64,000 nt of DNA from Aquisphaera giovannonii (lineage in GTDB: Bacteria > Planctomycetota > Planctomycetia > Isosphaerales > Isosphaeraceae): contig NZ_CP042997.1 of assembly GCF_008087625.1 (NCBI RefSeq), forward strand, positions 992,001 to 1,056,000, given 5' to 3'. The notes below the pieces were generated by a model, which was not told the origin of the DNA, made no database searches, and saw only the letters and a list, made by a program, of their open reading frames with translations. The stretch's first letter is position 1. Every line of letters starts with the position of its first letter. Shown here in pieces: positions 25,854 to 32,426 of the stretch. The translations under genes and the position numbers were made by a program.

Positions 25854-26084
25854 GGCCGCCCGGCCCGCTGGTCTCCCCGCGAGCCTCGGCAAGGCCGGCG
25901 TCGATTCCCACCCCCGAGGATTGCGCCGGGCCCCCTCGCCCCGCCCCGCGATATGCCCCGTCCGTTGCACCGGTGCCCGATATCGTCCTACACTTCTGCG
26001 GGCGGTCCGGCGTGCGGGCGGCCGGCGCGGATGGGGACGCCCCGGCGGGCCGGCCCCTCGGCTCACTCCTCGGGGGCGAATGAC

Positions 26085-28232
26085 ATGCGCAGACTTCACG
26101 GGCTCATCCTCGCGACCGCCTGCCTCGGGGTAGGCCCGGGCGCGGGCCCCCAGGCCCTCGCCGGGGGCGCGGCCGACGCGCCGGAGCGGGTCACCTTCAC
26201 GGAGCACGTCGCGCCGATCGTCTTCCGGAACTGCGCCTCGTGCCATCGCCCGGGCGAGGCCGCGCCGTTCCCGCTGCTGAGCTACCGCGACGTGAAGAAG
26301 CACGGCCACCTGATCCGGGAGGTCGTGGGCGAGAGGACGATGCCGCCCTGGCCCCCCGCGGAGGGCTGGGGCCACTTCCAGGACGAGCGGCGGCTGTCCC
26401 GGGAGCAGGTCGAGCTCATCGGCCGATGGGTCGAGTCCGGCATGGCGGAGGGCCCGGCGGACAGGCTGCCGGCCCTGCCGGCGTTCCCGGCCGGCGGCTG
26501 GACGCTCGGCACCCCGGACCTGGTCGTCACGCTGCCCGAGCCGTTCGACGTCCCGGCCGACGGCAAGGACATCTACCGGATGTTCGTCCTGCCGCTCAAT
26601 CAGGCCGAGGACCGATGGGTCACGGCCGTGGAGATCCGCCCGACGGCCCGTTCCGTCGTCCACCACGCCCTCTACTTCCTGGACAGCACCGGCGCGGCGA
26701 GGAAGCTCGACGAGGCCGAGCCCGGCCCCGGCTTCAGCCGTATGGCGTTCCCCCGCACGGGCTCGCTCGGCGGCTGGGCCGTCGGCGCGACGACCCGGCG
26801 CCTGCCGATGGGCCTGGCCTACCCGCTGCCGGCCGGCTCCGACCTGGTCGTCCAGATGCACCTGCATCCCTCCGGCAAGGCCGAGCGGGAGCAGACCTCG
26901 TTCGGGATCTACCTCGCCAAGGAACCGCCGAGGAAGCGGATCCTCGGGACGCAGGCGCCCATGCTCTTCGGCATCGGCACCGACCTGCGGAAGAAGGGGA
27001 TCGAGCCGGGCGACAGCCACTTCACGATCCACGGCACCTGGGAGGTCCCCTTCGACGTGGACGTCGTCAGCATCGGCGGCCACGCCCATTACCTCTGCAA
27101 GACCATGAAGGCGGTCGCCGAGCTCCCCGACGGCAAGGAGCTCAAGCTCTTCGCGATCGACGACTGGGACTTCAACTGGCAGGGGCGCTACAACTACGCC
27201 GAGCCGGTACGACTGCCGAAGGGGGCCGTCGTCCGGACCACGCTCGTCTACGACAACTCGGCCGACAACCCGAGGAACCCGTCGGATCCCCCGGTGAAGG
27301 TGCGCTGGGGCGAGGGCTCGCTGGACGAGATGGGCTCGATCGGCCTGGCGTTCGTGGCGGTGAACGAGGCGGACCTCGCCTCTTACAAGGGGCCGGCGAT
27401 CTTCGGCGGCGGCGACCAGGTCGGCCGCCTCGGCCGCCGGGCCGGGCCCGCGGCGGGGGCGGGTGCCGCGGCCCGGCGCGGGGGCCAGGGCCTCTTCGGC
27501 GGCCGCGACCCGGCCCAGGTGTTGATGCTCTTCGATGCCCTCGACGCCGACCGGGACGGCAAGCTGAAGGGCGATGAGATCCCCGCGCGGCTCCGGCTGC
27601 TCATGATCCGGATCGACGCCAACCGCGACGGCGTCCTCGAACGGGCCGAGCTCGAGAAGGCCCTCGCCGGCGCCCGCGACGCCGGGCCGGCGGGCAAGCC
27701 CGGGCCGGCCGCGGATTCCCGGGACGATCCCGCGATGACCGACCTGGCCGGGCATGCGTGGCACCCCCTCCGCCCGGCCGAGGGGTCGAAGGCCAACGTC
27801 CTGGTCTTCCTCGCGAAGGACTGCCCCGTCGGCAACACCTACACGAGCGAGATCACCCGGATCGCCCGCGACTACGAGGGCAAGCACGTCGCCGTCCTGG
27901 TCGTCCACGTCGATCCCGACGTGACCGCGGACGACGCGAGGGAGCACGCGAAGGAATACGGCCTGACGGTCCCGATCCTCCGCGACCCCGACCACGTCCT
28001 GGTGAAGCGGGCCGGGGCGGAGACCGTCCCCGAGGCCGCGGTGATCACCCCGGACGGCCGGGTCGCCTACTGCGGGCGGATCGACGACCGCTTCGGCAAG
28101 CTCGGCCGCCAGCGCACCGAGCCCTCCCGCCACGACCTCCGCGACGCGATCGACGCCGTCCTGGCCGGTCGCCCGGTCGCCCAGGCCCGCGTCCCGGCCA
28201 TCGGCTGCCCGATCGCGGATATGGAGCGATAG
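26085..28232 (+). CDS. Fusion protein: cytochrome c-like, copper type II monooxygenase-like, EF-hand and redoxin domains
   Basis: A 715-residue exported protein (signal peptide RLHGLILATACLGVG). The order of domains is: a CASCHRPGEAAPF haem motif at about residue 47; a two-part copper type II ascorbate-dependent monooxygenase-like region with the copper-ligand strings VHHALYF (about 190), QMHLHPSG (about 257) and GGHAHYL (about 330); a low-complexity linker; two EF-hand loops (DADRDGKLKGDE and DANRDGVLERAE, about 482-520); and a C-terminal AhpC/TSA-type redoxin with FLAKDCPVGNTY. The start is the ATG opening the signal peptide, not the upstream in-frame Met. It is probably a periplasmic copper/haem redox protein of unknown substrate. 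Confidence 0.82.
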   Translation: MRRLHGLILATACLGVGPGAGPQALAGGAADAPERVTFTEHVAPIVFRNCASCHRPGEAAPFPLLSYRDVKKHGHLIREVVGERTMPPWPPAEGWGHFQDERRLSREQVELIGRWVESGMAEGPADRLPALPAFPAGGWTLGTPDLVVTLPEPFDVPADGKDIYRMFVLPLNQAEDRWVTAVEIRPTARSVVHHALYFLDSTGAARKLDEAEPGPGFSRMAFPRTGSLGGWAVGATTRRLPMGLAYPLPAGSDLVVQMHLHPSGKAEREQTSFGIYLAKEPPRKRILGTQAPMLFGIGTDLRKKGIEPGDSHFTIHGTWEVPFDVDVVSIGGHAHYLCKTMKAVAELPDGKELKLFAIDDWDFNWQGRYNYAEPVRLPKGAVVRTTLVYDNSADNPRNPSDPPVKVRWGEGSLDEMGSIGLAFVAVNEADLASYKGPAIFGGGDQVGRLGRRAGPAAGAGAAARRGGQGLFGGRDPAQVLMLFDALDADRDGKLKGDEIPARLRLLMIRIDANRDGVLERAELEKALAGARDAGPAGKPGPAADSRDDPAMTDLAGHAWHPLRPAEGSKANVLVFLAKDCPVGNTYTSEITRIARDYEGKHVAVLVVHVDPDVTADDAREHAKEYGLTVPILRDPDHVLVKRAGAETVPEAAVITPDGRVAYCGRIDDRFGKLGRQRTEPSRHDLRDAIDAVLAGRPVAQARVPAIGCPIADMER

Positions 28233-29687: not shown

Positions 29688-30352
29688 CTCCCCCGCCTCC
29701 CGATCGATGCTCGTCCGTACCGGTCACCTCGACGCGATCCGCGAACAATGAGCAACTGCCATGCCCCGAGAGTGCAAGCTCGGAACACGAGCCGAACTCA
29801 CGCGGATGAGTGGATTACGGGACGCGAAGCCGAAACGTAGATATGAGATGGTATTGGTCAGGTGTTTGGAAGTCCTGCACGTCTCGATGAACGCTTGCGG
29901 GCAATCGAAGCCGGTTGTCGAAGAGGATGACTACCACGGATGGCACGGATCGCACGGATGACGGAAGGAGGATCAGCGACCCGCATTTTATCCGTGCTAT
30001 CCGTGCCATCCGTGGTAGCCTCCTCCGATGAATTCGCATTCAAGTCGCCCGGGATGTGGTCAATGAATCTAATAGTAAATACATTTTTGATTATGCCATC
30101 CGAGTGAATTTGTCAATCGAGCCAGGATTTTGGTCGACGAGCGGGCGGAATTCTCGGCTCGCTTCCCATCCGTGTTGTCCGTGCCATCCGTGGTGGCCTC
30201 CCCGATCTGGATGGGGCAAGCCGGAAAGGAGCACGGCCCGAGCTACGAGCTCGGGCCGCGTCCATGGGGTCGGGGTCGGTCGGGTCGGATCTGTGGTGGA
30301 ATCGTTCGGGAAGCCCCCCTACGAGGGCGCTGGCGTGCGTGGCAAGGTTGCT
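29688..30352. other. Intergenic region with ATCCGTG repeats
   Basis: No gene is supported in these 665 bases. The region contains short GGCACGGAT/ATCCGTGCC repeats in both orientations and an unusually AT-rich patch at 30060-30120. Confidence 0.6.
29936..30205. repeat. Short ATCCGTG-type repeats in inverted and direct copies
   Basis: The block 29936-29962 (ACGGATGGCACGGATCGCAC) is nearly the reverse complement of 29988-30018, and a further direct copy lies at 30167-30195. Each block is built from 9-10-bp units reading ATCCGTGCC or ATCCGTGGT. Confidence 0.65.
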
Positions 30353-30910
30353 CTACTTGTCCAGCACCTTCGGGAGGTCGGACAGGATGGCCCTGATGTC
30401 GTCCTCGGTGAGGTCGCCCTTGAAGCCTCGGGCGGCCTTGACCGCGTGGTGGGACCACATCACGACCGTGATGTCCGCCTCCCTGGACAGCTCGTAGTCG
30501 GGCACCCCGTCGGGGTCACGGGTGAGGGTGAGCGGGACGTGCTTGATGCCGGCGGACGTCGCCAGCTTCTCGAGGCCTTCCTCGGCCTTGTCGCCCTTGC
30601 GGGCGAGGAGGACGACGAAGCCCTTGAGGCTCTTGTTTTCGCCGATCTTGGAGTCGATCTGCTTGACCAAACTGGCCAAGGGTTCGGAGGTCTTGCGGGC
30701 GAAGACGCAGACCACCGGGGAATTGCCGTACCTTCAGCGATAGCAGAGGGTCGAGCCCTTCTGCGGGCCTGTGATGGCTTCGACATCGAACGGGCTGACG
30801 GGATCTCCGACCTGCTGGCCGGACTTGACCGGTTCTCCCGCGAGGCTGGTCCCCACCATGACGATGGAGACCACCACGGCGGAGAGACCCGGCGCGAATC
30901 GGAATCGCAT
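30353..30910 (-). CDS. Thioredoxin-like secreted protein with TGA in place of the second Cys of CxxC
   Basis: Start chosen at MRFRFAPGLSAVVV with GGAGGAG just before it, followed by a signal peptide ending TSLAG. The mature part runs VGDPVSPFDVEAITGPQKGS and TLCYR, then TGA at 30734-30736. The same frame then continues RYGNSPVVCVFARKTSEPL to the end of a thioredoxin-like domain (ADITVVMWSHHAVKAAR). The motif would read CYRC if the TGA were TGC. The total is 185 codons. Either this is selenocysteine (a CxxU redox site) or a one-base nonsense mutation. A hairpin at 30689-30713 follows the TGA, but its loop does not clearly match a bacterial SECIS. Function: probably a periplasmic thiol redox protein. 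Confidence 0.6.
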
Positions 30911-31182
30911 GAGCTCCTCCTTCGTGCAGGACCCGACCGGTCCCCGGCCCCATTCTGGGCGGACCGGCCCGGCGCGGCAAGGCCGCGGGGACGCTGGCCA
31001 GCGAAAGCCGAGCCACTGGAACGACGCGACATGCAGCTTCCGACGGCGAAGTTGGATAAGCTCATCAGGCCGGGCATCCAGGCACGGACGGCTGAATGCC
31101 GCCCAGCCCGTTCCTCGAGGCCGGAGTCCGAGCATTGTACGGCCGATCGCCCGGGGACGCATTGGAGCGATAGACGGGAGTC

Positions 31183-31806
31183 ATGAATCGGAAACATCAA
31201 CTCTCGCATCATGACGACTCGCCGGACTTGTTCAGGAGGTTGGAGGAGTGCCGATCTCGCCTGGCTACCGACTTCGTCGGCATCTGCTTCCGGACGGCTG
31301 CCTACAAGCGGGCCAATCAGCGGGACCTGATCAGCGGTCGGGGGAGTGCCATACACGGCGGACGATGGAACCCGCCCGGCCTGCCGACGGTCTACCTTTC
31401 AGCCGACCTGATCACGGCGACCGAAGAATACCTCCAGACGAATCGCAGGGCAGGCCTCCCTGATGAGGCCGCCCTGCCGAAGGTCGATGTCGGCGTCACC
31501 TGCGCCATGGATCGCGTGCTCGACCTGACGAGGGCGGATGTCAGGCGGTGCGTCGGCATCTCGGAGGAGCAAATCCTGGGCGTCCGGGTGCTCGAGCCGA
31601 CCGGCGTCGAGGTCATCACCCAGGCGATCGGTCGGCTCGCTGTAGAGGTCTGCTTCCAGGGCTTGCTGGTTCCGTCGGCCGCCCGTCCCGGGGCCCGGAA
31701 CGTCGTCGTATTCCCCGGGAAGCTCTCGAAGAGGCTCGCGATCGTGAACCGCGAGAGGCTGCCCCAACGTCCGCCTCGGCTCAAGGCAGACCGGAAAACT
31801 TTCTAG
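31183..31806 (+). CDS. RES-domain toxin (NAD+-degrading type)
   Basis: A 207-residue protein with the RES-family pattern: FRTAAYKRAN (Arg and Tyr of the active pocket), the fingerprint GGRWNPPGLPTVYLSAD, a following Glu in ATEEYL, and a C-terminal RLAIVNRERL strand. RES toxins such as MbcT and Res consume NAD+ and arrest growth. The Xre/DUF2384 antitoxin follows at 31893. The toxin is therefore upstream of its antitoxin, the reverse of the usual xre-res order. GGGAG precedes the ATG. It is divergent from the thioredoxin-like gene. Confidence 0.85.
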   Translation: MNRKHQLSHHDDSPDLFRRLEECRSRLATDFVGICFRTAAYKRANQRDLISGRGSAIHGGRWNPPGLPTVYLSADLITATEEYLQTNRRAGLPDEAALPKVDVGVTCAMDRVLDLTRADVRRCVGISEEQILGVRVLEPTGVEVITQAIGRLAVEVCFQGLLVPSAARPGARNVVVFPGKLSKRLAIVNRERLPQRPPRLKADRKTF

Positions 31807-31892: not shown

Positions 31893-32426
31893 ATGGCGGC
31901 CCATGCCAAGCGGGCTCCGGTGGGCAGGCAAGGGAAGGCCGGCCGCTCCCGGCCGTCCGGGCCCAAGAAGTCTCCCTCGGTTACCAAGGCTGTGAAGACG
32001 CCCGTCGCCGCGAGCCTCGGGACGGCCCCGCCGAAGCAGAAACGGCCTGCGTCTTCCGCGGCGGCGAAGTCCGCCTCCGGGGGGCCGGTGCTCCCGCCGG
32101 ACATGGCGCGTCGCATCGCGAAGGCGCGAAAGCGGCTGGGCCTCACCCAGCGGCTCTTCGCCCGGATGATCGGCGCGACGGATCGGGCGGTTGCTTCCTG
32201 GGAGAGAGGCGCGGCGGTCAGCCCAATGGCCTCGAAGCAGATTGCCGAGCTGGAGCGACTGGCCGGGGAGCTGGAAGGATCCATGAAGCCGGAGTTCATA
32301 CCGACCTGGCTGAACGCGCCGCTCCAGGTCCTGGGCGGGTCGAGCCCGATCGAGGCCTGGGGCCGGGGCGAGGCCGATCGGGTCTGGCGGCTCGCCTTCT
32401 TCATGGGCTCGGGGCTTCCCACCTAG
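31893..32426 (+). CDS. Xre/MbcA/ParS-type antitoxin with DUF2384 toxin-binding domain
   Basis: A 177-residue protein with GGGAGG eight to twelve bases before the ATG. The first 65 residues are a basic Lys/Pro/Ala tail. A helix-turn-helix follows (ARKRLGLTQRLFARMIG, then DRAVASWERG). The C-terminus has the DUF2384 signature WLNAPLQVLGGSSPIEAW and GEADRVWRLA, which blocks RES toxins. It is the cognate antitoxin of the gene before it and probably the pair's autorepressor. The long basic tail is unusual and could add DNA affinity. Confidence 0.87.
   Translation: MAAHAKRAPVGRQGKAGRSRPSGPKKSPSVTKAVKTPVAASLGTAPPKQKRPASSAAAKSASGGPVLPPDMARRIAKARKRLGLTQRLFARMIGATDRAVASWERGAAVSPMASKQIAELERLAGELEGSMKPEFIPTWLNAPLQVLGGSSPIEAWGRGEADRVWRLAFFMGSGLPT

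Follow-up and report, generated by a model that had tools for sequence, protein, structure and literature searches.

We propose that an Aquisphaera giovannonii gene interrupted by an in-frame TGA encodes an exported selenoprotein of a family undescribed in the sources searched, in which selenocysteine (Sec) insertion is directed by an unusually distant SECIS hairpin (the far hairpin) together with a hairpin that compacts the spacer in front of it (hairpin I), and we put the probability of this explanation as a whole at roughly 0.9. The gene lies on the reverse strand of a 64,000-nucleotide stretch of DNA, referred to here as the window (G000:C1:992001-1056000), in a 10.5 Mb genome that is 99.9% complete, and its features are listed in Table 1. 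According to the proposed mechanism, SelB would be recruited by the far hairpin while hairpin I would fold the intervening RNA away and leave ~16 unpaired bases, and this folding is what would bring the UGA within reach of the bound SelB. The Sec-tRNA(Sec) that SelB carries would then read the UGA as Sec, and the protein, a periplasmic oxidoreductase of thioredoxin fold, would thereby gain its complete C-x-x-Sec pair.

Table 1. Features of the selenoprotein gene and its RNA elements, in window coordinates.
Feature	Position	Strand	Description and basis
Selenoprotein gene	30910-30353	-	185 residues, Sec assigned at residue 59; translation and full-length homologue alignment
Shine-Dalgarno sequence AAGGAGGAG	30914..30922	-	Strong, upstream of ATG; read from sequence
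Putative signal peptide MRFRFAPGLSAVVVSIVMVGTSLAG	30836..30910	-	Residues 1-25; from translation, low confidence in AlphaFold2 model
Redox motif C56-Y-R-U59	30734..30745	-	Proposed Sec codon TGA at 30736-30734
Hairpin I, proposed spacer-folding hairpin	30685..30717 (core 30713-30689)	-	Folding energy compared with synonymous recodings
Far hairpin, proposed SelB-binding SECIS, CUUGGCC-AGUUU-GGUCAAG	30662..30680	-	Loop 30673-30669; conservation and compensation

The in-frame TGA and the selenocysteine machinery

The frame reads MRFRFAPGLSAVVVSIVMVGTSLAG...TLCYR*RYGNSPVVCVFARKT...VLDK*, with a single internal TGA in the context LCYR-TGA-RYGNSPVVCVF and a TAG (30355-30353) as its terminal stop. 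Standard annotation would either cut the protein at residue 58 or place its start after the UGA. The TGA is conserved among relatives and exchanges with Cys codons. In the host family (Isosphaeraceae) 23 homologues were found in 21 of 45 genomes, and all of them have TGA at exactly the Sec codon, while wider searches gave 81 orthologous genes with TGA in 45, TGC or TGT in 35 and TCT in one. A further search brought in four genes beyond these 81, three with TGA and one with TGC, so that TGA occupies the Sec codon in 48 relatives overall, from Planctomycetota and Acidobacteriota, and four more distant homologues have a motif that lacks Cys. The TGA forms come from several Planctomycetota families, from Tautonia sociabilis and from Acidobacteriota (L071-L074), and the Cys forms from Gimesia, Schlesneria and related bacteria. 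A maximum-likelihood tree requires about six label changes, of which at least five are forced by well supported branches, with the position of the root unsure. Two side observations concern individual relatives. The gene with TCT (L119, G308) has Ser at the Sec site in a genome that has tRNA-Sec, and its fold shows no SECIS-type hairpin, and in three sets of tandem duplicates (L024/L033 in G039, L025/L034 in G041 and L105 in G088) both copies have TGA and the far hairpin.

The TGA also co-occurs with the machinery for Sec. The host genome encodes SelA (C1:5920361), SelB (C1:9392011-9393900), SelD (C1:9201676) and a tRNA-Sec (selC; C1:8657727, 77 bits, with which ARAGORN concurs), all on the main contig, and its selD has an in-frame TGA of its own at the usual Sec place (NCAGU). 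Within the family, selA or tRNA-Sec is present in 21 of 21 genomes with a TGA gene versus 11 of 24 without one (p = 4e-5), and in the wider phylum tRNA-Sec is present in 13 of 16 TGA genomes versus 4 of 34 Cys genomes (p = 3e-6), the three TGA genomes in which none was detected being incomplete assemblies. These are Fisher tests, which take related genes and genomes as independent, hence the p-values exaggerate the strength of the association, and the tree and the covariation described below are better guides.

The preliminary description had read the signal peptide and domain as one frame across the TGA with no other damage, had suggested that the TGA specifies Sec in a CxxU motif, and had named as checks a search of the genome for selA, selB, selC and selD and an alignment of homologues. 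The frame is indeed undamaged, and it is intact downstream of the TGA in the TGA homologues; all four genes were found, the alignment has TGA versus TGC/TGT at the site, and both results support the suggestion. It had also raised the alternative that a TGC was changed to TGA in a decaying Cys gene. A single base change would suffice for this and Cys homologues do exist, but such a mutation is contradicted by a TGA that is common to relatives in two phyla, with the frame beyond it preserved, in genomes that hold the Sec machinery, and we regard it as extremely improbable. It is also very improbable that the UGA is recoded to some other amino acid or is read through without Sec, as several of the homologous genes terminate with TGA, which indicates that UGA is a stop in these genomes, the alternation is with Cys rather than with another residue, and tRNA-Sec, SelA, SelB and SelD are all present. 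From the sequence comparisons, the in-frame UGA at residue 59 almost certainly specifies Sec.

The far hairpin and the proposed folding of the spacer

Both RNA hairpins downstream of the UGA are under constraint. The far hairpin spans +56 to +74 after the UGA, with its loop 60-61 nt away in the A. giovannonii gene, where it can fold as 7 bp with a 5-nt loop (-8.2 kcal/mol) or as 8 bp with a 3-nt loop (-8.6 kcal/mol). It is found in 43 of 45 TGA genes versus 1 of 35 Cys genes (p = 5e-19, by a Fisher test that ignores kinship). Across 42 aligned sequences all 287 of 287 cells are paired, and changes on both sides of a pair, that is, compensatory changes, occur in five of the seven pairs, amounting to 15 cells compared with 1.5 in shuffles and at most 5 in slid controls. 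All 42 sequences share a G at position 2 of the loop (column 65), and several homologues have the loop GGUCU; the SECIS loop of E. coli fdhF is AGGUCU. The DNA is conserved here beyond the need of the protein, in that the fraction of identical codons at codons 19-24 after the UGA is 0.92 in Sec genes of the family, 0.80 in other Sec genes and 0.47 in Cys genes, and both TTG codons and the sole AGT codon of the A. giovannonii gene fall within these six codons. The strong matches of an RNA model of the element lie in the selenoprotein gene family, one of the weak matches (G440:C1:8795506) is a Cys homologue, and a search of Rfam gave only a chance microRNA match. One TGT gene (L080, G397), whose genome also has tRNA-Sec, retains the hairpin (CUUGACC-GGUCU-GGUCAAG), apparently as a relic of a change from Sec to Cys. 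Taken together, the conservation and compensation suggest that the far hairpin is very probably the SECIS element to which SelB binds.

Hairpin I, the nearer of the two, had been described earlier as a hairpin whose loop lacks an obvious early G, and SECIS support had therefore been called weak. The hairpin exists and its loop indeed has no conserved early G; the second and much more conserved hairpin farther downstream had been missed. Compared with synonymous recodings, the region of hairpin I folds more stably in TGA genes (mean z of -2.33) and scarcely so in Cys genes (-0.63). Its pairing register shifts between lineages, which is why RNAalifold gave no strong consensus for it, and its support is thus energetic and not in the form of pair-by-pair covariation, for which a shared register would be needed. 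Synonymous codon conservation, which is high in the far hairpin, is not clearly raised over hairpin I.

An alternative is that the UGA does encode Sec and that the near hairpin is itself the SECIS, with the far hairpin as an accessory. The loop of the near hairpin falls ~28-36 nt after the UGA, within the published range, and its region does fold better than the synonymous recodings, yet the fixed sequence, the compensation, the invariant loop G and the likeness to the SECIS of selD (see below) all reside in the far hairpin, and neither a loop G nor a register of hairpin I is common to the lineages. We therefore consider this alternative unlikely and favor the far hairpin as the SECIS and hairpin I as the element that spans the distance to it.

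Relatives in which the spacing differs bear on this arrangement. Two divergent relatives (L117/L118) are without the far hairpin and have instead GACCUGC-GGU-GCAGGUC at 19-20 nt from the UGA, and a folded hairpin I would give the far hairpin an effective spacing similar to that of the L117/L118 SECIS. In two others (L137/L138) a 9-nt insertion puts the far hairpin at +65 and in one L105 copy a 3-nt insertion puts it at +58; the hairpin is kept in each case, and the distance from UGA to loop in relatives with insertions is 63 and ~69 nt. That the far hairpin is kept at +65 after a 9-nt insertion fits a spacer that is looped out. It is on the energetics of hairpin I, the L117/L118 genes, the tolerated insertions and the L080 relic that we base a two-hairpin SECIS, and from these sequence features it seems reasonably likely that hairpin I serves to fold the spacer away.

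Protein fold and gene surroundings

The AlphaFold2 model of the protein is confident (pLDDT 86.9) and has a thioredoxin-type fold according to Foldseek and VIA matches, the nearest folds being those of thiol peroxidases, peroxiredoxins and ResA-like proteins. For the predicted fold, the VIA Z is 16.7 against E. coli Tpx (151 aligned positions, rmsd 3.1) and 16.0 against ResA (135 aligned positions, rmsd 2.5), at a sequence identity to the Tpx, peroxiredoxin and ResA-TlpA proteins of 8-18%, and the place of their cis-proline appears to be taken here by a conserved VPLT segment. No model in Pfam or NCBIfam scored above its cut-off and a sequence search of the PDB gave no relative. The preliminary description had named a thioredoxin-like CxxC motif; the fold is indeed of thioredoxin type, but the motif is not at the usual position. 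In thioredoxin and peroxiredoxin families the catalytic Cys follows the first core strand and sits where a helix begins, whereas in the model the CxxU (56-59) comes ahead of the first core strand (66-71; helix 76-91), and the usual catalytic place (residues 72-79) lacks Cys in 22 of 22 sequences. The order of these elements in the model suggests a thioredoxin-fold protein with a displaced redox motif, which probably functions as an exported thiol/selenol oxidoreductase.

Conservation of the neighboring genes was not found beyond close relatives, and gene context therefore yields no function. In the window, the 759-residue product of a gene at 25953-28229 (+) combines EF-hand-like and AhpC/TSA-redoxin domains. 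Intergenic repeats built on ATCCGTG/CACGGAT lie at 29931-30201, with two 47-nt direct copies and a pair of 29-nt inverted arms matching at 97% complementarity. A RES-domain gene (31183-31803, +) is followed by an Xre-type helix-turn-helix gene (31893-32423, +), and the pair resembles a RES-Xre toxin-antitoxin system in reversed order.

Comparison with known SECIS elements and selenoproteins

In common with the CxxU selenoproteins listed in Table 1 of a 2026 review (PMC13188914), the protein described here has the UGA, the C-x-x-U motif, Cys homologues and Sec machinery in the genome, but by name and motif description it corresponds to none of the 119 selenoprotein families of that review (PMC13188914), and no description of the family was found in the openly licensed literature. 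The bSECIS model specifies an apical loop of 3-9 nt, an upper stem of 4-16 bp with an energy of at most -7.5 kcal/mol, a G within the first two loop positions and, for most bacterial SECIS, a distance of 16-37 nt from UGA to apical loop (PMC13188914). The far hairpin conforms in its stem (7-8 bp), its loop (3-5 nt), its energy (below -7.5 kcal/mol) and its loop, which has G at position 1-2 and then U or G. It departs from the model in its distance of 60 nt, which is nearly twice the usual maximum, and in the second stable hairpin that lies in between. As pointed out in the 2026 review, a subset of bacterial SECIS breaks the consensus model (PMC13188914), and the present family is a clean case of such an element, with natural controls in the form of the canonical L117/L118 genes, the insertions and the apparent Sec-to-Cys relic. 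A search enforcing the 16-37 nt rule would miss the far hairpin.

The SECIS elements of selD in the same genomes offer a closer comparison. Like the far hairpin they are SelB-type hairpins with an RGU loop, and a small hairpin is often folded ahead of them, but the selD loop is at 32 nt, within the usual range, and the hairpin preceding it is much shorter than hairpin I. Among the Sec-containing selD genes, such a short hairpin often lies just before the SECIS hairpin in L047, L158, L163, L166 and L168-L172. Hence the two-hairpin layout may extend beyond the selenoprotein family described here. The signal in this family, which is undescribed in the sources searched and occurs in at least two phyla, may well represent a distinct class of bacterial SECIS with tandem hairpins, in which the first would compact the spacer and SelB would bind to the second at a distance of 60-70 nt.
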